Of a DNA stretch of 64,000 nucleotides, positions 38,996 to 48,858 are shown piece after piece. The number at the start of each line of letters is the position of its first letter. The first letter of the stretch is position 1. A program made the translations under genes and the position numbers. The stretch spans positions 1 to 64,000 of the forward strand of contig JAOZIA010000002.1 of the NCBI GenBank assembly GCA_026014585.1. Direction: 5' to 3'. A model generated the notes under the pieces. The model did no database searches. It was not told the origin of the DNA and saw nothing but the letters and a program-made list of their open reading frames with translations. The stretch is from Candidatus Bathyarchaeota archaeon. GTDB taxonomy: Archaea > Thermoproteota > Bathyarchaeia > Bathyarchaeales > Bathycorpusculaceae.

Positions 38996-39817
38996 ATGCA
39001 AAAAAAAGCCAGACTAAACCTTGTTCAAACAGCTACAATTGCAATGTTTGCCATTGGTTTAGCGTTAGTTATTCTCTCGGCATTTTATGCGTCATCGTTT
39101 CTGGTGATTTGTGGTGTGACGCTTGTTTTCTGGAGTCTTATTTTATTTTACATTAAACCCACCAAACATGTACCTATCACAATGCTCAACGCGCTGGCAA
39201 ATACAAGTTCAAGTAATCTGGAACGGGTTCTTGTCGAATTGAACTTAACCGAAAAGGGGTACTATATGCCCCCTGAAAGCTTAAGTGATTTACAATCAAG
39301 CACAGTTTTTATTCCTAAAGGGAAAACCCAAATTCCAAAATCGGAAGAAATAAACGATAAACTCATAACTGACCGCAAAAACGGAATCTACGTAACCCCA
39401 CCTGGCTTAGCTTTAACGCAGATGATGGAAAAAGAGACAGGTATACCTTTTGCTAAAACTCACATGGGCTATGTAGAGAGAACCTTTCCCAAGCTTATGG
39501 TTGAAACTATGCAGCTTGCACGGGAAGCAGAAATAAAAATGGAAGGCAACCGAGTAACAGTTGACCTTAAAGGCAGCATGCTAAATGATATCTGCCGGGA
39601 AACCCAAAAACTTCCCAGAACTCACGAGTTAATCGGTTGCCTACAAAGCAGTGCTATAGCATGTATTCTCTCGAAAGCTTCAGGAAAAGCTGTTGTTGTC
39701 AAAAGTGAAATTCAAGATTTTGAGGCTAAAACAACAAAGATAGAATTAACAATGATTGAGTTAAGCCAGCCTGAAATAAGGTTCAAAATTTTTGATGTAC
39801 CCCAAAACCAGCTGTAA
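38996..39817 (+). CDS. Membrane protein of unknown function
   Basis: The product is 273 residues. Two hydrophobic helices near the N-terminus (about 12-30 and 34-52, IAMFAIGLALVILSAFYA and FLVICGVTLVFWSLILFYI) hold a hairpin in the membrane. The remaining 220 residues are soluble, on the cytoplasmic side if the N-terminal Lys/Arg stay inside. They include PPGLALTQMMEKETGIPF and RVTVDLKGSMLNDICRETQ. I recognise no family. It is convergent with the large membrane protein at 39823, six bases away, so it may belong with the filament-like module. Confidence 0.6.
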   Translation: MQKKARLNLVQTATIAMFAIGLALVILSAFYASSFLVICGVTLVFWSLILFYIKPTKHVPITMLNALANTSSSNLERVLVELNLTEKGYYMPPESLSDLQSSTVFIPKGKTQIPKSEEINDKLITDRKNGIYVTPPGLALTQMMEKETGIPFAKTHMGYVERTFPKLMVETMQLAREAEIKMEGNRVTVDLKGSMLNDICRETQKLPRTHELIGCLQSSAIACILSKASGKAVVVKSEIQDFEAKTTKIELTMIELSQPEIRFKIFDVPQNQL

Positions 39818-39822
39818 AGGTT

Positions 39823-42237
39823 TTAGTTGTTAAAGGGAGTATTTGGGGTTTCTGGGGGTCTTTTGGTGAGCACTGTTTTTTCTTTATCCAAATGGTATTC
39901 GGGGTAATTTTTTATGTAGAACACGTATAGGTATTCAGCGGCGAATTTTGGGGCAAAGGGCAAGTCAGATGGGGGAACAGTGGTTTTGTGTTTTAGTTGT
40001 TCCAGAATTACCCGTTCAGCCATGGGGTAGTTGAGCAGGAACTCTTTGCGGATTCGGTAAGCTTTCAAAGTGTCTTCTATTTCGGTTAAGTAACTATAGT
40101 ATTTGGGAAGCTCATCCATAACCTCATTAACGCCGCAGTTCGGATTGAACAAAACCCGCAGTGCATTTGACATACGCTCGTGTAAGTTAGCGTTTTTCTC
40201 CCATTGATAGGCAGATGTAGGTAACAACGCCTCGATTTCTTGCTGTTCAGTTGTCAGTTTCTGGTCAAAAACCTTGAAGAGGTCACGGGATATTTCTTGG
40301 AAATTATCCATTAACTCTTTTAGCCTAAGCAAACTTAGGATGTTTAAGGGTCTTTGTTCTGCCTGTGTTTTTATCATGTCAGCCTTTTTGGCGTAACCTA
40401 AAACGTTGGACAAATCATTGCCAAGCAATGGCGCTAAGCTTGCGCTTCGGTTTCCTAATGCAATTATGGGGTCTAAAGATCTCTCCAAATTTTCGATAGA
40501 TTGGGAAATTTCATCTTTGTATTGTCTTCGCCAATTGTTGAGGGCACCATACATTGCATCTATGCCAAGCCAGGGTTCTTTGGTTTCAAGTTTTTTGGTT
40601 GCATAAAGTGTTGCAGGGCACTCTTTAGGAAGTGTGGGATCGTAGAGGTTTCGTACAACATTGTATATTGGGTCAACTGTTTTTATTAGTTCAGAGGTTA
40701 GAGCGCGCCCATTTTCTAGAGTTTCTTTTATGCTTTGTACTTTAGCATCCACAGGTAACTCAGCGTAGAAGGCATGTGGCGTTTTAACTTTGAATTCTAA
40801 GCCGATGTCTTTGAGTTTTGTCATCCAAGCAGTATATTGAGTGTTTGCCAAGGCTTGATACTCTATTAAGGAAATGTGCAGTTCGTTTTCCACATCATCA
40901 ATAACTGGGTTAACATTATAGGTTAGGTCATCATAAACCCCATCTAAATCGGTAGCCCTATAGAAATTACCCTGCGTTTTACCATTAACCTCGTCAATTT
41001 TATCACGCAATACAGTAGCTTTGGCTTCTGCGGGTCCAATAGCAACTGGAAGATTACTTCTGACATCAACAATTTGAGATTCAATGTAACCATGCTTGTC
41101 AGAAAGTTGTGCTGTTCGCTCTTTAATCATGTCAAGGGTAGCTAATTTTTTAGGTGAAAACGTCAGAAAAGACACGGGAACAGTCAACAGAAGCGTTGCT
41201 ATTGCAGCCAAAATAAACGTTGACGGCGCATCTACAGCAGTGTATGCTAAAGAAGTCTGCAGGACATTTAAGAAGATAAAGAATAATGCAGCAATAATTG
41301 AAGCCATCAAAGGCATAAAAAGCCTGTCTGCATAGACCAGGTTAGTTCTTTCCATCAAAATACCTGATAAATAGATTAAGGCAATTGCCACACCGACAAT
41401 GATTATTATAAAAAGTATGATACCGGGAAAAGAATCAAGATACTGCCTGAAAGCTGCAGATAAAGGTCTCTCAACTGAGACGGGATTGTTTGTTAATTGG
41501 TCCATAATTGTGGTTGCAACTTTTGAAGTGTCATACAACCTGAACTGATCCATAGCTTGCTGTGAGCTGGAAAGAACTGAGGTTAAAGGCACAAATACTG
41601 TTGGGGCAGAACCAGACACCGTCCACCAGTCGCTCTGGGTGATGGTAAGGATATGTGTATAGTACTGCACGATTTGAAGTGGGACGGTAATTATAACGTA
41701 GTAACCTAAGGTTAAGAGTGATTTACGTTTAAAAAAGACGACAGAGGCTAAAATTAAGGGTATTGCCAAAAAGTAAAATCCTGAGAAAAACAACACCATC
41801 GAAGCTATAATTCCTAAATCTAAAGCGATAACAGTTTTTTGTTTATCGACAAACAGGGGAAAAATAATAAACAAAGCAATCCAGATAGCCACGAAAGCAA
41901 CACGCGTAATTGTGCCGCCCAATGATGCGATAAAATCAACTGTAGCTAAGTGATAAATTAAACCAAACCCGATAAGCAGACCGCCAACAGTCATGCCCAA
42001 TCGGGGATTATTATAAACACCAAAAGCAATTAAACCAGCCAAAACCAACGGCAAAGGCTGAGGAAACATTTGCAAAAAAGACATAGCCAAAGCCATGCTT
42101 ACAAGCGTTAAAACGAGCGTGAATAATTTCAGAGGCATTGGCTCGATTTCTTGGTTTTTAGGTTGCTTTTTTTTGCGGAGTCCAATCTTGAAACGTGACT
42201 TTTTTTCTTTCTTAGTCTGGCTTAGCCCCTGTTCCAA
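39823..42237 (-). CDS. Polytopic membrane protein with a long helical C-terminal domain
   Basis: The product is 804 residues. After a very basic start (KKEKKSRFKIGLRKKKQP) there are about ten hydrophobic helices between residues 35 and 365. The last 440 residues are soluble, helical and charged (LDMIKERTAQLSDKHG, IENLERSLDPIIALGN, LKELMDNFQEISRDLFKVFDQKL), suggesting a cytoplasmic scaffold or filament-binding domain. No transporter motif is visible. It is divergent from the degenerate FtsZ-like gene (55 bases between starts), so the two may be co-regulated. I infer a membrane anchor for the filament module; function is otherwise unknown. Confidence 0.68.
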   Translation of the reverse strand: MEQGLSQTKKEKKSRFKIGLRKKKQPKNQEIEPMPLKLFTLVLTLVSMALAMSFLQMFPQPLPLVLAGLIAFGVYNNPRLGMTVGGLLIGFGLIYHLATVDFIASLGGTITRVAFVAIWIALFIIFPLFVDKQKTVIALDLGIIASMVLFFSGFYFLAIPLILASVVFFKRKSLLTLGYYVIITVPLQIVQYYTHILTITQSDWWTVSGSAPTVFVPLTSVLSSSQQAMDQFRLYDTSKVATTIMDQLTNNPVSVERPLSAAFRQYLDSFPGIILFIIIIVGVAIALIYLSGILMERTNLVYADRLFMPLMASIIAALFFIFLNVLQTSLAYTAVDAPSTFILAAIATLLLTVPVSFLTFSPKKLATLDMIKERTAQLSDKHGYIESQIVDVRSNLPVAIGPAEAKATVLRDKIDEVNGKTQGNFYRATDLDGVYDDLTYNVNPVIDDVENELHISLIEYQALANTQYTAWMTKLKDIGLEFKVKTPHAFYAELPVDAKVQSIKETLENGRALTSELIKTVDPIYNVVRNLYDPTLPKECPATLYATKKLETKEPWLGIDAMYGALNNWRRQYKDEISQSIENLERSLDPIIALGNRSASLAPLLGNDLSNVLGYAKKADMIKTQAEQRPLNILSLLRLKELMDNFQEISRDLFKVFDQKLTTEQQEIEALLPTSAYQWEKNANLHERMSNALRVLFNPNCGVNEVMDELPKYYSYLTEIEDTLKAYRIRKEFLLNYPMAERVILEQLKHKTTVPPSDLPFAPKFAAEYLYVFYIKNYPEYHLDKEKTVLTKRPPETPNTPFNN

Positions 42238-42292
42238 TTCTTTTACCTAAAACCTTATTTTGTTAATACACTCTTAAGCTTATCGAGAAAAA

Positions 42293-43966
42293 ATGTCAAA
42301 AAAGGCAGAAACAGTCTCAGATGGCATTGAAGACCTCAGCCAAATTGCCAGAAGCCAGTTAAGTTCGCCAAGGAAAGCTATTGTCAGCATTAGTGAATAC
42401 CCTGGCAAGATTATTCTTAACGCCCCGTTCATCAGTAAAAATAACGTTTTACCCCTATTCATCAGCAAATCAAGCAAAGACATTGTTAAATGGAACCCAG
42501 CCGCAAAAGATTTCATCAGCAACACCATCAGTTTAAACAAGGCAGATACACACTTCTGGTTTAACGTTGCAAAGTCAGGCAACAGAATTGCGTCACGCCT
42601 AAAGCAGCAACAGATAGAGAAACTAAAAACAGCCATTATAGTTTCTTCTACATGGGATGGCATGGGAAGTGCGCTTTTGCCGATGTTAGTTTTACAGTTA
42701 AAAGAATTGAATGTAAACTCGGTTGCGATAGCGTTGTTGCCATCTCAGGTTCAGCCTATGGATAGCCAATTTAACATGGTAGCATCCATTGGAACATGTG
42801 CCTCCAAAGATTTGACAACAGTTATACTTGTTAACCGAGATAACCTTGAAAGCTACATTGGAGTAGACAGAAGCGGCAGCGTCATAACAGGCAACAGCGT
42901 CACCAATTACTTTATGGAACTGCTGCTATCTAAAGACAAAGTTGCGCAAGAAGTAAGCGAATTAGCCAAACTGTTTGACTCCAAAATGTTCACTGTTCTG
43001 CTGTCTACGGGGGCAAGCCTGCAGATTTATGGTTCAATAGAAAACATGATTAGCACTACCCTGTTAAAACCTCTTTTAACTTATGATTTGGCGGATTCAA
43101 AAATAATCTATGCAATTGTACGCATACCTTTAGGCCTTAAAGAAAAAGTTACGCAGGGAAAAGTTGAGTTAGCAATAGCGAACTGCTTCAAAAACTTAGC
43201 TAACATACAAACAATTATGGTAACTGAACCAGTCTATGTTGAAGAAGAAAATGACCGAATAGACATTGCACTTTTAGTAGGCGGCTTTGACCTTGTAAAA
43301 ATGTTTGCGCCCATAGAAGAAACAGTCCAATCGATGAAAGACAAAGCGGTTAAAGAACAATTCATAACTGATAATCAATGGTTAGGCATGACTTACAAAA
43401 TTACAGGCAAAGACCCGCCACCGCCAGAAATTCCCCTGCCACCAGAGCCAGAAACAGAAATCGTGGAAGAGGATCCAACTATAATTATGCCCCTTGAAGA
43501 AGCTGAGCAAGCAACTATCATTAAAAATATTGAAAGCACACCTGAAATAGAGACAGTATCAGAACCAGTAATTGAAGCTACAGAGCCAGAGGAGAAAACA
43601 GAAGAAGAACCTAAAAGAAACAGAACAAAACAAGAAAAACCGACAGGAAGAACCAGAAAAACAAGAGCAAAAAAACCCGTTGAAGAAAACACAAAGGAAA
43701 CTGTTGTTGAAGAAAAACAGGAACCAGAAGCCACAGAAGCAATCATTACGGAGACACCTGAGGCAGAAACAACAACCGCGGAACTTGTCCCTGAAGCAGA
43801 ACCCAAAACTGAGCAGGAACCAGAATGGATAGAGGAACAAACACAAGTTGAAAACGTAGCTTCAACAGAACCAGAAAAAACTGAAACAGAAAAGAAAAAT
43901 CAGGTAGAACAAGAAACGCAAAATGTTGAAAATTTAGGAAATGAGGAGCCAAAAACTCCTCAGTAG
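42293..43966 (+). CDS. Divergent FtsZ/tubulin-superfamily protein with a degenerate GTP site and acidic tail
   Basis: The product is 557 residues. Residues 1-375 follow an FtsZ-like pattern. Where FtsZ has the GGGTGSG loop, this one reads VSSTWDGMGSALLPMLVLQLKELNVNSVAIALLP (about 118-150). The C-terminal FtsZ domain is visible in LLKPLLTYDLADSKIIYAIVRIP and IDIALLVGGFD (about 324-333, like VTVIATGFD). The phosphate loop is clearly altered, so GTP hydrolysis is doubtful. Residues about 375-557 are a Glu/Pro/Lys/Thr-rich tail, likely disordered, reminiscent of tubulin tails. It is convergent with the tubulin-like GTPase, 13 bases apart. The superfamily call is by pattern, not search. Confidence 0.6.
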   Translation: MSKKAETVSDGIEDLSQIARSQLSSPRKAIVSISEYPGKIILNAPFISKNNVLPLFISKSSKDIVKWNPAAKDFISNTISLNKADTHFWFNVAKSGNRIASRLKQQQIEKLKTAIIVSSTWDGMGSALLPMLVLQLKELNVNSVAIALLPSQVQPMDSQFNMVASIGTCASKDLTTVILVNRDNLESYIGVDRSGSVITGNSVTNYFMELLLSKDKVAQEVSELAKLFDSKMFTVLLSTGASLQIYGSIENMISTTLLKPLLTYDLADSKIIYAIVRIPLGLKEKVTQGKVELAIANCFKNLANIQTIMVTEPVYVEEENDRIDIALLVGGFDLVKMFAPIEETVQSMKDKAVKEQFITDNQWLGMTYKITGKDPPPPEIPLPPEPETEIVEEDPTIIMPLEEAEQATIIKNIESTPEIETVSEPVIEATEPEEKTEEEPKRNRTKQEKPTGRTRKTRAKKPVEENTKETVVEEKQEPEATEAIITETPEAETTTAELVPEAEPKTEQEPEWIEEQTQVENVASTEPEKTETEKKNQVEQETQNVENLGNEEPKTPQ

Positions 43967-43979
43967 TTAATTATTTTTT

Positions 43980-46637
43980 TTATTTGCCGTTTTCATTGTT
44001 TATGTCTTTGATTACTTGTGCTGCGCTGATTCCGTGTTCAAGCAGGTACGAGCGAGATAGGTGTCGTTCGAAGTCGCTTGATTTCTGGTATAGCAGTTGC
44101 ATTTCGTCGTATGCTTCAAGGTCTTCTGGTCGTCCTCTTGCGCCAACCACTAGAATTCTGGTTGTCCATGCATCTCTTGAATCGACAACACGCACAGTGA
44201 TGGTTCTTGAAACTTCACTGGTTACGTAGCCTGCAAGTGAAGCGTACACTTCCTGTGACATGTCATCAGTCCACATTCGAGGTGGCGCAGTGATTGTTAC
44301 CCAGATGTAGTCGGTTTTGTAGATTGGCTTGAAACCCATGACACTTGGGGTCTTAAAGACGCGTACGACGCTTTTGAGGTAGTCTTTGTAGTGGTCCATG
44401 TCAAGGATGTCTTTGAATATGACTTCGGGTGTGAGGGTTTCTTCTTGTTCTTTGAGTATTTTAAAGACTATTCTCATCTGCTCGGTTTCTGTTAGTTCAG
44501 AGCATTTTTCAAAGTACTTCTTTGGCTTGACGATTTCAGCCATTTTTTCTTGATAATCCTTGTTGATTTCAACGATTTTGGCTAGACGCTTGCGGTAATC
44601 TGCAACCAACTCGAAACGTTTGGAGAGCATGTCATAGAACATTAAAGTGTCATCGACTTTCTGTAGGTCCTCCAGAACGATTGCTTCTTCCTCGTCCATG
44701 CGTTTTAGTTGGCGGTCAATGTTTATCAGTTGTTCGCGGGCGTAACGTTTGTTGCTAAATGTTTTTCTTTGTTCACGTTCAAATTTGATGCGGTCAAATT
44801 CTTTGCGGCGTTTGCCTTCTTGGACGCGGATAACCTCGTTTTCCTGGTCACTTCTGCGTTCCATACGTCTGGAAATAATTCCGCTAACGTATGCTAAGTG
44901 CTCGTCAATCATTTTGATTTCGTCTTGAGGTGTACGAAGCATTAACTGGATGAGCAGGTAAATTGTTGCAAGTTCAGATTTGATGTCTCGGATTTCGGCT
45001 AGTTGGAATTCCGCTTCTGGGAGAACTTCGTAGAATCGTTCAAGTGATTCTGCAAGGTAGCGTGTTTCATCGTAGAATTTGAGGATGTCTAAGGATTTTT
45101 CGGAGAGTTCAACTATGTTGATAAAGTCTTCGAGGATGATTTTTTGGCGTAGCGTGAATACTTGTGAGCTTGGGATTAACTGGCGTAGTCTGTCGCATAT
45201 GTCTGCTTTCTTGTCAGAGAATTCAAGGTGGGTCTTTGTCAGGTTTGTTACAAGAGATTCTAAGTTGTCAACTTTTCTTGAGCCTTCCTTATGAAGCGTC
45301 AAGTCAATGATGGCTTCTTCAACTGGACCAATCTTGCCCATCATCTTTATTGTTGACAAATACCTTGACAGGTCACTCATCCAAGATTTAGCTTGCAACT
45401 CTATGCCTTTAACGTGCAGTTCTAAGTCGTCTTCTAAGCGTGGATTACTAAATACCAGTGAACGCAACTTGTCCTCGAACTGTTCCTCAGCAAACGTGCC
45501 TGTTTGGATGAGGTAGTTCATGTAAAGCTGCCGGATTAAGCCATAGTTTACTTGTAGAATGTTAAAGATTTCATCCATTACGTCAAGTTTTTCGAGGCGG
45601 TGGTCATGCATAAGCATTAGGCTTTCAAAGTTTAGTTTGAAGGCTGAAATGTAATTGTCTACTGGATAGATAACTTTGTAGAGACCAATTGTGTGAGCAT
45701 AATTGTTGGTTAAGCCTACTTCTGTTCCGATGCCGCCCATGAGGTCTGCCAAGTCAAAATCCATAAGCACATAGAGCATATCAACGACCATCTCGTCAAG
45801 CTCATGCCTTGCAGTTACGATGTCGCCAACTTTAGAGAATGCAGGCAACAACGGCAGGTAAATTAGAGCGTTTAATGGGTTACGGTAAAAGTCACCGTAC
45901 TCTTTGCAGACAAACTCGTTATAATCCTTGTTAAGAATCAAAGCTTGCTCGCTCATCGCTGTGAAAGCGGAACAACCTTTTGCTGGTGGGTCATCGCCTC
46001 CACATGGAGTGATAACAAAAGCGATTATTGGGACGCCTGAGCCGAGGACTTTTCGCAGGTGCCTTGCGAAGTCAAAGAATAAGCCGCTGCCGGTTCCTCC
46101 TCCTAAACCGTAAACCAGAATGATTGTGGGCGTCATGATTGATGAGAGGGCTTGTTCTTTGAAGACGTTTATGCTGCTTTTGATTATGCCAAGCTGGTAA
46201 TAGTTAAGGGCGTAAATGGCTTTTGCAAGCGCTCGTCGTCTGCCAGCGCCACCGGCCATTGGAGGAATAGCCATTGTTGAATTGAGCCAGGGGATGAACT
46301 CTTGGATTTTGGCTCCTTCGCCGACAAGGTATTCGTTGTATTTTATGTTGATGAAATCAAACATGGCTTCGGCGGTTGGGAACTTTACTGATTGCGCCAC
46401 AAGACGTAGGCGTTCTTTGGGGATGCCTGATTTTACCATCTGTTTCATTAAGGATTCATAGTTTTCTTGAAGACTTCTAATTTCAGGGTCAGCAATGTCG
46501 ATGGCTAATAGGGAAATTCTGGTAATGTCATGTTTTAGTAAGTCCATTGTTTTTTGGTTGTTCATGAAAGCTTCGACAATGTTGGTTCCTGCTGAACCAA
46601 GCCCAACGACTTGAACACTATTTTGGTATATTCTCAA
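43980..46637 (-). CDS. Large tubulin/FtsZ-superfamily GTPase (Tubulin_2-like) with coiled coil
   Basis: The product is 885 residues. The N-terminal GTPase has the FtsZ nucleotide loop VGLGSAGTNIVEAF (12-19), the tubulin signature GLGGGTGSG (177-185) and a T7-like DFDLADLM (293-300) keeping both catalytic-loop acids, so it should bind and hydrolyse GTP. About 550 further residues are mostly helical and very charged, with a coiled-coil stretch near 590-680, then a beta-containing end (VGARGRPEDLEAYDEM). Pfam's Tubulin_2 group and the FtsZ-like families proposed for membrane remodelling have this size and build. It is co-transcribed with an upstream single-pass membrane protein (4-base overlap). 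Confidence 0.8.
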   Translation of the reverse strand: MRIYQNSVQVVGLGSAGTNIVEAFMNNQKTMDLLKHDITRISLLAIDIADPEIRSLQENYESLMKQMVKSGIPKERLRLVAQSVKFPTAEAMFDFINIKYNEYLVGEGAKIQEFIPWLNSTMAIPPMAGGAGRRRALAKAIYALNYYQLGIIKSSINVFKEQALSSIMTPTIILVYGLGGGTGSGLFFDFARHLRKVLGSGVPIIAFVITPCGGDDPPAKGCSAFTAMSEQALILNKDYNEFVCKEYGDFYRNPLNALIYLPLLPAFSKVGDIVTARHELDEMVVDMLYVLMDFDLADLMGGIGTEVGLTNNYAHTIGLYKVIYPVDNYISAFKLNFESLMLMHDHRLEKLDVMDEIFNILQVNYGLIRQLYMNYLIQTGTFAEEQFEDKLRSLVFSNPRLEDDLELHVKGIELQAKSWMSDLSRYLSTIKMMGKIGPVEEAIIDLTLHKEGSRKVDNLESLVTNLTKTHLEFSDKKADICDRLRQLIPSSQVFTLRQKIILEDFINIVELSEKSLDILKFYDETRYLAESLERFYEVLPEAEFQLAEIRDIKSELATIYLLIQLMLRTPQDEIKMIDEHLAYVSGIISRRMERRSDQENEVIRVQEGKRRKEFDRIKFEREQRKTFSNKRYAREQLINIDRQLKRMDEEEAIVLEDLQKVDDTLMFYDMLSKRFELVADYRKRLAKIVEINKDYQEKMAEIVKPKKYFEKCSELTETEQMRIVFKILKEQEETLTPEVIFKDILDMDHYKDYLKSVVRVFKTPSVMGFKPIYKTDYIWVTITAPPRMWTDDMSQEVYASLAGYVTSEVSRTITVRVVDSRDAWTTRILVVGARGRPEDLEAYDEMQLLYQKSSDFERHLSRSYLLEHGISAAQVIKDINNENGK

Positions 46638-47680
46638 TATCTATATCCTCCGCCGTATCCTCTTGAATCATCATAACCTTCATCATATCCTTGGTCCTCA
46701 TCGGCACCTACGGAATCTTCTAAACGTTGCTTGATGTTTGCCAAGTTTGCAGCTAAGTTTCGGTCTATTCTTTGTGCACGCATACTTAGCCCTTCTAAAT
46801 CCTTGATTTGATCTTCAACCATCATTTTGATGTAGCTGGCTTTGCCTCTGTTTCGGAAGAACAAGAAAGCAAAAAGAACCGCAATGACTGCGAACACTGC
46901 AACTAATGGAAGGAATAACATTTGCATAAGCTGTGTTGGTGGAGCAGAAATGTTTAGGCTTTTTAGCATTGCTATCGCGGTATCAGCTAACCCGGCGTTA
47001 GCTGCTTCCTGAGATTGCTGAATCACACTATTGTACATTGCTAAGAAAGATGCGTCGACACCTTGGCTTTGCAGTGAACTATAGGTGGATTGTGCCTGAC
47101 CTAGCAGGTTGTTGTATTGGTCGATTTTTGCATCAGTTATTTTTGGTTGAACAGCATCAAGAGTTGCGCCGTTGGGGTCTTTTAATGCGATAACGGTTAT
47201 TGGAACTGCTTTGTGAAGGGTTACATCACCATAGGTTTGAGCAACTTTCCCAGATGCTTTTCCTATACAATTCAACGTTAAGGTTCCTGCAGTTTCAGGG
47301 AAAGAGAAAGATTGCGAACTTGGGTTATAACCTGAACCTAAGGGGTAACCGTTGGTTTGTTCCCAAAGATGATCAAGTGAAGATTTAGTTAATTCTGTGC
47401 TTAAAGTTAAGCTTGTTGAAGGGTTATTAACAGAAATTTTTATGGTTACAGCAACTTTTATTGTGGCACCATCAATAATTGAGCCAGTACCACTTATTGT
47501 ATTAGCTTGAAAGTCTCTGTCAATAATGACTTGACCAGTGTTGTAATCAGAAATTGTGTATTTGGTTATCCAGCTTCCTTGACCAACCGCTGCTGAAGCT
47601 GGGGTAAATGCAGCGATATAACTCAGTGAGCTTATAATTAATAAGACAGTTATACTTAACGCGATTAGCTTGTTCCTCAT
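46634..47680 (-). CDS. Exported single-pass membrane protein upstream of the tubulin-like gene
   Basis: The product is 348 residues, taking the ATG at 47680 (MRNKLIALSITVLLIISS), behind CGAGGGAAG. A frame 27 codons longer would bury the signal peptide. A signal peptide (to about residue 30) is followed by a beta-rich external domain, a helical pair (VQPKITDAKIDQYNNLLGQAQSTYSSLQ) and one membrane helix (about 259-280, LFLPLVAVFAVIAVLFAFLFF). A cytoplasmic segment then contains a helix (MRAQRIDRNLAANLANIKQRLED) and a Gly/Tyr/Asp-rich tail. Its stop overlaps the tubulin-like start, so I infer a membrane receptor or anchor for that filament. Confidence 0.75.
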   Translation of the reverse strand: MRNKLIALSITVLLIISSLSYIAAFTPASAAVGQGSWITKYTISDYNTGQVIIDRDFQANTISGTGSIIDGATIKVAVTIKISVNNPSTSLTLSTELTKSSLDHLWEQTNGYPLGSGYNPSSQSFSFPETAGTLTLNCIGKASGKVAQTYGDVTLHKAVPITVIALKDPNGATLDAVQPKITDAKIDQYNNLLGQAQSTYSSLQSQGVDASFLAMYNSVIQQSQEAANAGLADTAIAMLKSLNISAPPTQLMQMLFLPLVAVFAVIAVLFAFLFFRNRGKASYIKMMVEDQIKDLEGLSMRAQRIDRNLAANLANIKQRLEDSVGADEDQGYDEGYDDSRGYGGGYRY

Positions 47681-47892
47681 TTTAGGCTTCCCTCGGTTTT
47701 TTTTTATTGTACGATGAATATAACGTTTGTGTTTTTCACTCTTAAATAGGCTTCCAACCATGTAAATTTAGATACAGTTCTAACAGATTAATGTATACTA
47801 ACAAGCCATTTCTCAGGCCTTAAAACTATGAACAACTTAAGACAAAGCAACGGTTATTTTTAGAATTTAACGGTAATGTTATTAGGAGTTTT

Positions 47893-48858
47893 ATGCTAGT
47901 AACCACACGCGCGCGAGCTGAAATAATTATGAAAATTGTTAATGTCCGTTTACCAGACAAACTACTCTCAGAAGTGGACACGCTATCTGAAAAACACAGT
48001 TTAAGCCGCTCAGAAATCATGCGCCAAGCATTAACCGTCTACCTACACCTGATGGAAAACGCGGGCACCATGCTACGACCCCTAAGCTTCCAAATCAAAC
48101 CCGCCCAAATAGTCTACACTCGAAGAGGTGACGTATCAATCATGAAAGTCCCCACGGGGCACGCAGTTGTTGTGGGCTCCACCTCGTCTGGCGCGGTTGA
48201 ACCAAAAATGATGGATAAAGTCAAGGTTGACGGCAAAGTCTTAGGCAAATTTTTGGCTAGAGTCGCATTGATGGATGTTACTGCAACGGGAGCCTTCCCC
48301 CTTTTGCTTTCAGTCACTTTGGGTGTTGAGCAGGAACCGACTGGAAACGAAATTTTAGAGGGCATACGCAGAGAGACACGGGTTCTGGGTTTGGAGCCTA
48401 ATCAGGTTTTGCTGGAAAACACAGAGGACAATTTTGAAACCGTGCAGACGGGTGCGGGCTTAACGGTGATTGGGTTTGCAAACGAAAACGAGCTACGACT
48501 GGGAAAAACTGTGCCAGGTGACTTGGTTGTTGCGGTTGGTAAGCCTAAAGTTGGTGATGAGGTGATTCCTGCGGAGGTTCACGGTGAGATTGCTGATTTG
48601 AAAAATGTGGTTTCGCTATCGCAAAGGAAATATGTACATGACATTGTAGCGGTTGGTAGTCTTGGGATTGCTAATGAAGCAAAGATGATGGCGTTTGCTG
48701 TTGGTAAACAGTTAAAGTTTAGTGAGGTTCAAGGGGTGGATTTGGAGAAAACTGCGGGCCCAGCCACTGTGGTTTTGGTTACGGTTAATCCTGAAAAACT
48801 TGAAGATCTCAAAGCATTAATCCCTAAACCAATCAACGTTATTGGAAAAATAATTTAA
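47893..48858 (+). CDS. Ribbon-helix-helix domain fused to an AIR-synthase-like domain
   Basis: The product is 321 residues. AGGAG lies just before the ATG at 47893; a second ATG (47929) gives a 12-residue shorter product. Residues about 13-55 are a ribbon-helix-helix DNA-binding domain (MKIVNVRLPDKLLSEVDTLSEKHSLSRSEIMRQAL). The C-terminal 230 residues resemble PurM/ThiL-type enzymes: VLGKFLARVALMDVTATGAFPLLLSVTLGV, then QTGAGLTVIGFA and GDLVVAVGKPKVGDE. This suggests a regulator sensing a nucleotide or phosphorylated metabolite, or an enzyme that also binds DNA. The ligand and target are unknown; the ClC gene is convergent with it. Confidence 0.72.
   Translation: MLVTTRARAEIIMKIVNVRLPDKLLSEVDTLSEKHSLSRSEIMRQALTVYLHLMENAGTMLRPLSFQIKPAQIVYTRRGDVSIMKVPTGHAVVVGSTSSGAVEPKMMDKVKVDGKVLGKFLARVALMDVTATGAFPLLLSVTLGVEQEPTGNEILEGIRRETRVLGLEPNQVLLENTEDNFETVQTGAGLTVIGFANENELRLGKTVPGDLVVAVGKPKVGDEVIPAEVHGEIADLKNVVSLSQRKYVHDIVAVGSLGIANEAKMMAFAVGKQLKFSEVQGVDLEKTAGPATVVLVTVNPEKLEDLKALIPKPINVIGKII

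Follow-up and report, generated by a model that had tools for sequence, protein, structure and literature searches.

Why would an archaeal genome place the gene of a seemingly intact tubulin-type GTPase next to that of a tubulin-like protein with a degenerate nucleotide loop, and flank the pair with the genes of two membrane proteins? The question is raised by a locus in the first 64,000 nucleotides of contig JAOZIA010000002.1 (GenBank assembly GCA_026014585.1) from a Candidatus Bathyarchaeota archaeon; this whole stretch is called the window here, and the genome to which it belongs comprises 2.3 Mb and is 95.6% complete. An earlier account made from the window's letters alone (the sequence-only reading) had proposed that an active and an inactive FtsZ-like protein form a membrane-linked filament. 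In what follows, the genes are designated A (protein with a signal peptide and a single transmembrane helix), B (GTPase), C (polytopic membrane protein) and E (inactive partner), and D denotes a fifth gene found in related loci. Comparison of sequences across genomes provided strong evidence that A, B, C and E are a real module with a joint function, because the set is conserved through rearrangement and across domains.

Results

Organisation and co-occurrence of the module genes

The four open reading frames singled out by the sequence-only reading were all found as it had described them. Gene A (46634..47761, minus strand), for which the ATG at 47680 taken by that reading is a plausible start, overlaps with its end the start of gene B (43980..46637, minus strand) by 4 bases. 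Gene B converges with gene E (42293..43966, plus strand) across a gap of 13 bases (43967-43979), and gene E diverges from gene C (39823..42237, minus strand), with 55 bases between the two starts.

The distribution of these genes was analysed in a class sample of 121 genomes; here and below, sequences from beyond the window come from assemblies, mostly metagenome bins, and taxon names are those of the submitters' titles. Gene B had 21 carriers, gene E 19, gene C 18 and gene A 19. No E, C or A was found outside a carrier of B, and apart from contig breaks the genes formed contiguous clusters. This co-occurrence greatly exceeds what chance would give (Fisher p 1e-18 to 3e-20, calculated over related genomes that are not independent), and it agrees with the earlier suggestion that the two membrane proteins are dedicated to the pair. 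Single members were missing mostly at contig ends, and in one genome (G059) E and C had diverged too far for the first search and were recovered with broader profiles. Within the genus of the window the module is all-or-none, with five carriers, including the window genome itself (G000), and four genomes that have none of it. The proposed set of four is real but incomplete, as many carriers also have D.

A scan of 85,000 species genomes, partly the same as those of the class sample, yielded at least 49 loci in Bathyarchaeota, Thaumarchaeota/Nitrososphaerales, Pyrodictiaceae/Desulfurococcales and Chloroflexota/Dehalococcoidia, a range that is a lower bound; loci from close relatives of the window's genome carry the labels Bathyarchaeota and Bathycorpusculum. 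When searched with profiles of the four families, nearly all listed loci with enough flanking sequence showed the same set, and the profiles placed the module in Nitrososphaeria, Pyrodictiaceae, other Thermoproteota and Chloroflexota. The gene order is A-B-(E reversed)-C(-D) in Bathyarchaeia, A-B-C-D-E in marine Thaumarchaeota and Chloroflexota, and A-B-C-E in Nitrososphaerales and others. In quick trees of B and E the major clades agree, and the branches of E are longer than those of B. The system is sparse, since B was present in only 22 of the 398 genomes of a phylum-wide sample.

Protein B, a tubulin-type GTPase with intact loops

Protein B (885 amino acids, aa) scored 53.4 bits against the Pfam family Tubulin_2 (PF13809), also known as FtsZl1, above the curated cut-off of 27, and 35.9 bits against Pfam Tubulin (cut-off 33). 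Its orthologues align to nearly the whole PF13809 profile (positions 2-350 of 356), one of them reaching 71 bits over positions 3-351, and in the class sample Tubulin_2 matches above 40 bits were confined to gene B. The protein is not a canonical FtsZ, as it scored 15.8 bits against the TIGR00065 equivalog, for which the cut-off is 295. Relatives of the module proteins in the PDB were detected with profiles; a search of PDB sequences with single module proteins gave no match. The AlphaFold2 model of B (predicted local distance difference test score, pLDDT, 85.8; predicted template modelling score, pTM, 0.76) was matched by Foldseek to TubZ, CetZ and FtsZ with E-values of about 1e-5.

All three loops that had been noted in the sequence of B were confirmed, and their conservation among homologues was followed. 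The T1 loop GLGSAGTN (residues 12-19; 46581..46604, minus strand) is conserved as GLG[SG][AT]G in all homologues that cover the region, and the T4 loop GLGGGTGSG (residues 177-185; 46083..46109, minus strand) is kept, with minor variants, in 46 of 46. The T7 catalytic loop DFDLADLM (residues 293-300; 45738..45761, minus strand) contains two aspartates, Asp295 and Asp298, both of which are present in every one of the 46. In FtsZ and tubulin, T7 works solely across the interface between subunits; its invariance in B therefore implies assembly, and the sequence data suggest that B most likely polymerises in the FtsZ/tubulin manner.

According to the model and the predicted secondary structure, B consists of an N-terminal FtsZ-like domain, a coiled coil and a further C-terminal domain. 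The T7 loop is followed by a predicted strand (residues 314-323), a long helical and coiled-coil part (approximately 326-762) and a beta-alpha-beta-beta unit (778-835). From the order of these elements and a weak profile match to protein E (E-value 0.15), we infer that residues 778-835 may be the tubulin/FtsZ intermediate domain, split off by the helical insert.

Two unusual forms of the gene were observed. A solitary, extended B of 960 aa is encoded in genome G004 (L166, 6408-9287), where neither FtsZ nor ESCRT-III was detected. In a single-contig Thermoproteota genome (G409; L162, 6514-9167) the module is present and B is split into two frames.

Protein E, a tubulin-fold partner losing its nucleotide loops

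Protein E (557 aa) comprises a fold at approximately residues 25-375, followed by a 182-residue acidic tail. With the tail removed, AlphaFold2 predicted a tubulin-type fold (pLDDT 88.6, pTM 0.87), whose best PDB match in Foldseek was CetZ (3zid, E-value 1e-15); across CetZ, tubulin, TubZ and FtsZ the E-values ranged from 1e-15 to 1e-13. A profile of E compared with PDB sequences found CetZ2 best (4b45, E-value 2e-8), and also CetZ and the Asgard and gamma tubulins. The sequence-only reading, which had seen an FtsZ-like domain in the C-terminal part of this protein, was right about the fold and wrong about its extent, as the fold runs throughout.

Against PF00091, the window protein scored 20.6 bits, below the cut-off of 33, and an orthologue (L119) 33.2 bits. 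Proteins B and E appear, from these family matches, to belong to separate branches of the tubulin superfamily and not to stem from a recent duplication, because PF00091 matches 22 of the 42 members of the E family at an E-value of 0.01 or lower (best 1e-10) but Tubulin_2 only four. When the two profiles were compared with each other, they aligned around T4 only (E-value 6e-6).

The altered loop TWDGMGSA, reported earlier from the sequence, is present at the T4 position of the window protein (approximately residues 120-127; 42650..42673, plus strand), which lacks an active-GTPase signature. Among the homologues, an intact T4 (GGGTGSG or GGGMGSG) was found in only six of 42, namely five from Chloroflexota and one from a thaumarchaeal metagenome-assembled genome (L123), and the loop is degenerate elsewhere. 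The second aspartate of T7 (the position of FtsZ Asp212) is lost in 40 of 42. These loop states, set beside those of B, bear out the proposed pairing of an active with an inactive protein. The window's own E is one of the two exceptions that still have the aspartate. Donation of a catalytic Asp in trans by its DLAD motif was considered and dropped, as the residue occurs in just these two.

As judged from the alignments, nucleotide binding is a property that E has lost secondarily, because an intact T4 is the state of the superfamily. If such loss is irreversible, the tree of E, which is a quick one with some long branches, needs at least three losses of T4. The inactivity of E is of a particular kind, with the catalytic T7 lost nearly everywhere and the nucleotide loops lost secondarily and intact in Chloroflexota.

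Two further regions vary between lineages. The orthologues of E are mostly 320-490 aa long, and the E/D-rich tail is absent from most of them. Only close relatives of the window's genome have it, which removes the basis for treating it as a general binding device, as the sequence-only reading had done. The N-terminus of E carries a Cys-rich, zinc-ribbon-like segment in Thaumarchaeota and Chloroflexota, which is missing in Bathyarchaeia.

Membrane proteins A and C and the fifth gene, D

Protein A has a signal peptide, an extracytoplasmic region that is beta-rich and helical, one transmembrane helix (residues 282-300 of the 375-aa reading) and a conserved cytosolic tail, DQIKDLEGLSMRAQRIDRNLAANLANIKQRL. 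The signal peptide, the transmembrane segment and the cytosolic helix are conserved across all lineages, and in nearly every locus with enough flanking sequence a homologue of A stands directly upstream of B. Pfam gave only weak, scattered matches of the kind typical of helical or low-complexity sequence. In one locus (L109:8983-8988) the TAG stop of gene A directly abuts the in-frame start of gene B, so that apart from this TAG the frame is open for about 1220 codons; a similar frame occurs in G104. An A-B fusion would be possible in loci of this type if these archaea read TAG as pyrrolysine.

Protein C was described earlier as a ten-helix membrane protein with a large helical domain. It is indeed polytopic, and its C-terminal domain, of about 430 aa, is helical, but averaged hydropathy yields about nine hydrophobic segments (residues 38-358) and not a firm ten. 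Homologues of C are found within the module from Bathyarchaeia to Chloroflexota, and searches of Pfam and the PDB with C returned no known family, only weak and scattered helical or low-complexity matches.

Gene D, which adjoins C or E in many loci, encodes a soluble protein of about 240-330 aa with a beta-rich N-terminal part and a helical remainder. No D was detected in the window genome, and the gene was found in only three of the 41 genomes of the window's family. In the most distant lineages D was assigned by position and size only.

Neighbouring genes

The surroundings of the module in the window are of housekeeping or metabolic character: A-type ATPase subunits, larB/larC/larE-like genes, a ClC channel, a cytidylyltransferase and a GHMP kinase. 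Divergent from gene A lies a gene (47893..48858, plus strand) for a protein with ribbon-helix-helix and AIR-synthase-like parts (Pfam RHH_1 28.4 bits, AIRS 26.8 bits), which also matches weakly the aCcr1 family of cell-cycle regulators (26.9 bits, cut-off 60). Among the related loci listed, this gene is close to the module in six near relatives only (L095, L096, L097, L100, L104 and L116); its product may regulate the module. On the other side, convergent with gene C, a gene at 38996-39817 encodes a membrane protein of 273 aa that matches NfeD-membrane weakly. It was rejected as a module member, since a search of the related loci gave no homologue. In another genome an ESCRT-III (Snf7) match (G099:C76:12955-13254) shares a contig with the module at a distance of about 6 kb, which may be coincidence.

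Discussion

In our judgement the chances are even that the locus encodes one membrane-attached tubulin-type GTPase machine, with B as the filament, A and C as anchors and E as a cap, nucleator or regulator, and that this machine is not a core division ring. Protein B would bind and hydrolyse GTP and, as its nucleotide loops and its catalytic T7 loop are all retained, most likely self-assemble into filaments, with the coiled coil projecting from them. The cytosolic juxtamembrane helix of A and the helical domain of C would keep such a filament at the membrane and link it with the outside of the cell. Protein E, which cannot form a full hydrolysis site and in archaea mostly cannot bind nucleotide, would most likely attach to the end or side of the filament as a cap, nucleator or regulator and link it to the membrane complex, and D, where present, could serve as a PH-like adaptor. 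The process served would most likely be local membrane shaping or the organisation of a surface complex.

Several observations weigh against this reading. The structural likeness of B to tubulins is moderate (TM score approximately 0.4-0.5 by target length in Foldseek), and its C-terminal tubulin-like part is recognised from secondary structure and the weak profile match only. In the most distant lineages E was detected by weak scores (15-90 bits) together with position, and the resemblance of the beta-rich part of D to bacterial PH domains is weak (bPH_3, E-value 0.04). Finally, the genome with the solitary B has neither A, C nor E.

The pair could instead form an obligate alternating heteropolymer in the manner of alpha/beta-tubulin, with E as a structural subunit. 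Protein E keeps the whole tubulin fold and strictly co-occurs with B, and in Chloroflexota it has nucleotide loops but no T7, an asymmetry like that of alpha/beta-tubulin. However, archaeal E mostly lacks both the nucleotide loops and T7, so that B-E interfaces could not hydrolyse GTP, whereas B retains everything needed for B-B contacts; the longer branches of E and the origin of the two proteins in different branches of the superfamily also speak against it, and we regard such a heteropolymer as unlikely. We are equally doubtful about a complex for transport, secretion or signalling across the envelope, in which the tubulin-like GTPase would be a switch and not a filament. A role of this type was suggested for FtsZl1 by a reviewer of PMC2875224, who noted transport genes near some FtsZl1 genes, and it would suit the large extracytoplasmic domain of A and the polytopic nature of C. 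Searches of the module turned up no family of transporters, channels or secretion proteins, however, and the invariant T7 of B argues for assembly.

The distribution of the module bears on two further explanations. The module could be envisaged as replacing FtsZ in cell division or working alongside it, since the window genome has no other match to the tubulin superfamily and 13 of the 21 carriers lack a clear FtsZ. Yet the window genome has three ESCRT-III-like genes, and the carriers divide into 10 with ESCRT-III only, six with FtsZ only, two with both and three with neither detected. Since carriers use ESCRT-III, FtsZ or both, the module is not tied to one division system, and replacement of FtsZ was rejected on these grounds. 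The absence of the module from four sampled genomes of the window's own genus is a patchiness that argues against an essential role. The module is probably not a core division ring, and a division system of either kind is improbable. A mobile, viral or defence element would account for the patchy distribution, the varying neighbours and the presence in both archaea and Chloroflexota. On the other hand, no relative was confirmed in 2.9 million viral contigs, PADLOC gave no match, and no Pfam mobile-element family was found among the ten window neighbours scanned; we give this explanation hardly any credence.

We tentatively propose, beyond the reading of the locus as a membrane-attached GTPase machine, that several Thermoproteota lineages, and also Chloroflexota, share an undescribed membrane-anchored cytoskeletal system. 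Built from two different branches of the tubulin superfamily, it would combine a Tubulin_2 filament with a CetZ-like dead subunit as cap or nucleator, catalysis having been lost first and nucleotide binding repeatedly later. In the literature searched, outside which subscription journals mostly lie, neither the pair of B and E nor the module was found described, and no experimentally known function of Tubulin_2/FtsZl1 was found. In E, a protein of tubulin fold can be seen at successive steps towards a nucleotide-free state, both intact and degenerate forms occurring in one module, and the series offers a natural comparison for the role of dead subunits in cytoskeletal polymers.

Among known systems, B belongs by profile to FtsZl1/Tubulin_2 and has the same layout of N-terminal FtsZ-like domain, long coiled coil and C-terminal domain. 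The operons of FtsZl1 described by Makarova and Koonin in 2010 carry vWA proteins, a P-loop GTPase, kinases and OmpA proteins (PMC2875224); the module genes and their ten neighbours include none of these, and the module has instead an inactive partner and two membrane proteins. In that study FtsZl1 could not be aligned beyond H5, T6-H7 was not identified, and the presence of T7 and the formation of filaments were left open, whereas T7 is plain and invariant in the B of this module, so that with its fixed partners this branch makes the matter testable with defined components. The same study mentions a disrupted Sulfolobus protein, SSO1376, which may belong to the same branch as B; the split B of G409 is similarly broken. 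In later work Tubulin_2 proteins are described only as divergent outgroups (PMC9871819), and unassigned FtsZ-like proteins in Bathyarchaeia, together with two FtsZl1 proteins of Sulfolobales, have been recorded (PMC9723716).

CetZ is nearest to E both by Foldseek (3zid) and by profile (4b45), but in E the catalytic T7 is missing and so, in most archaea, are the nucleotide loops, and E is found only with B. In alpha/beta-tubulin, BtubA/B and FtsZ1/FtsZ2, as in the module, two proteins of the tubulin superfamily are encoded and presumably act together. The members of those pairs are paralogues that both bind GTP, whereas the module combines a Tubulin_2 GTPase with an inactive CetZ/tubulin-like protein. 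With respect to its inactivity, E may be likened to ARC3, an FtsZ-like protein of chloroplast division that has no GTPase function and regulates active FtsZ; ARC3 differs in its other domains and in being a factor of plastid division.

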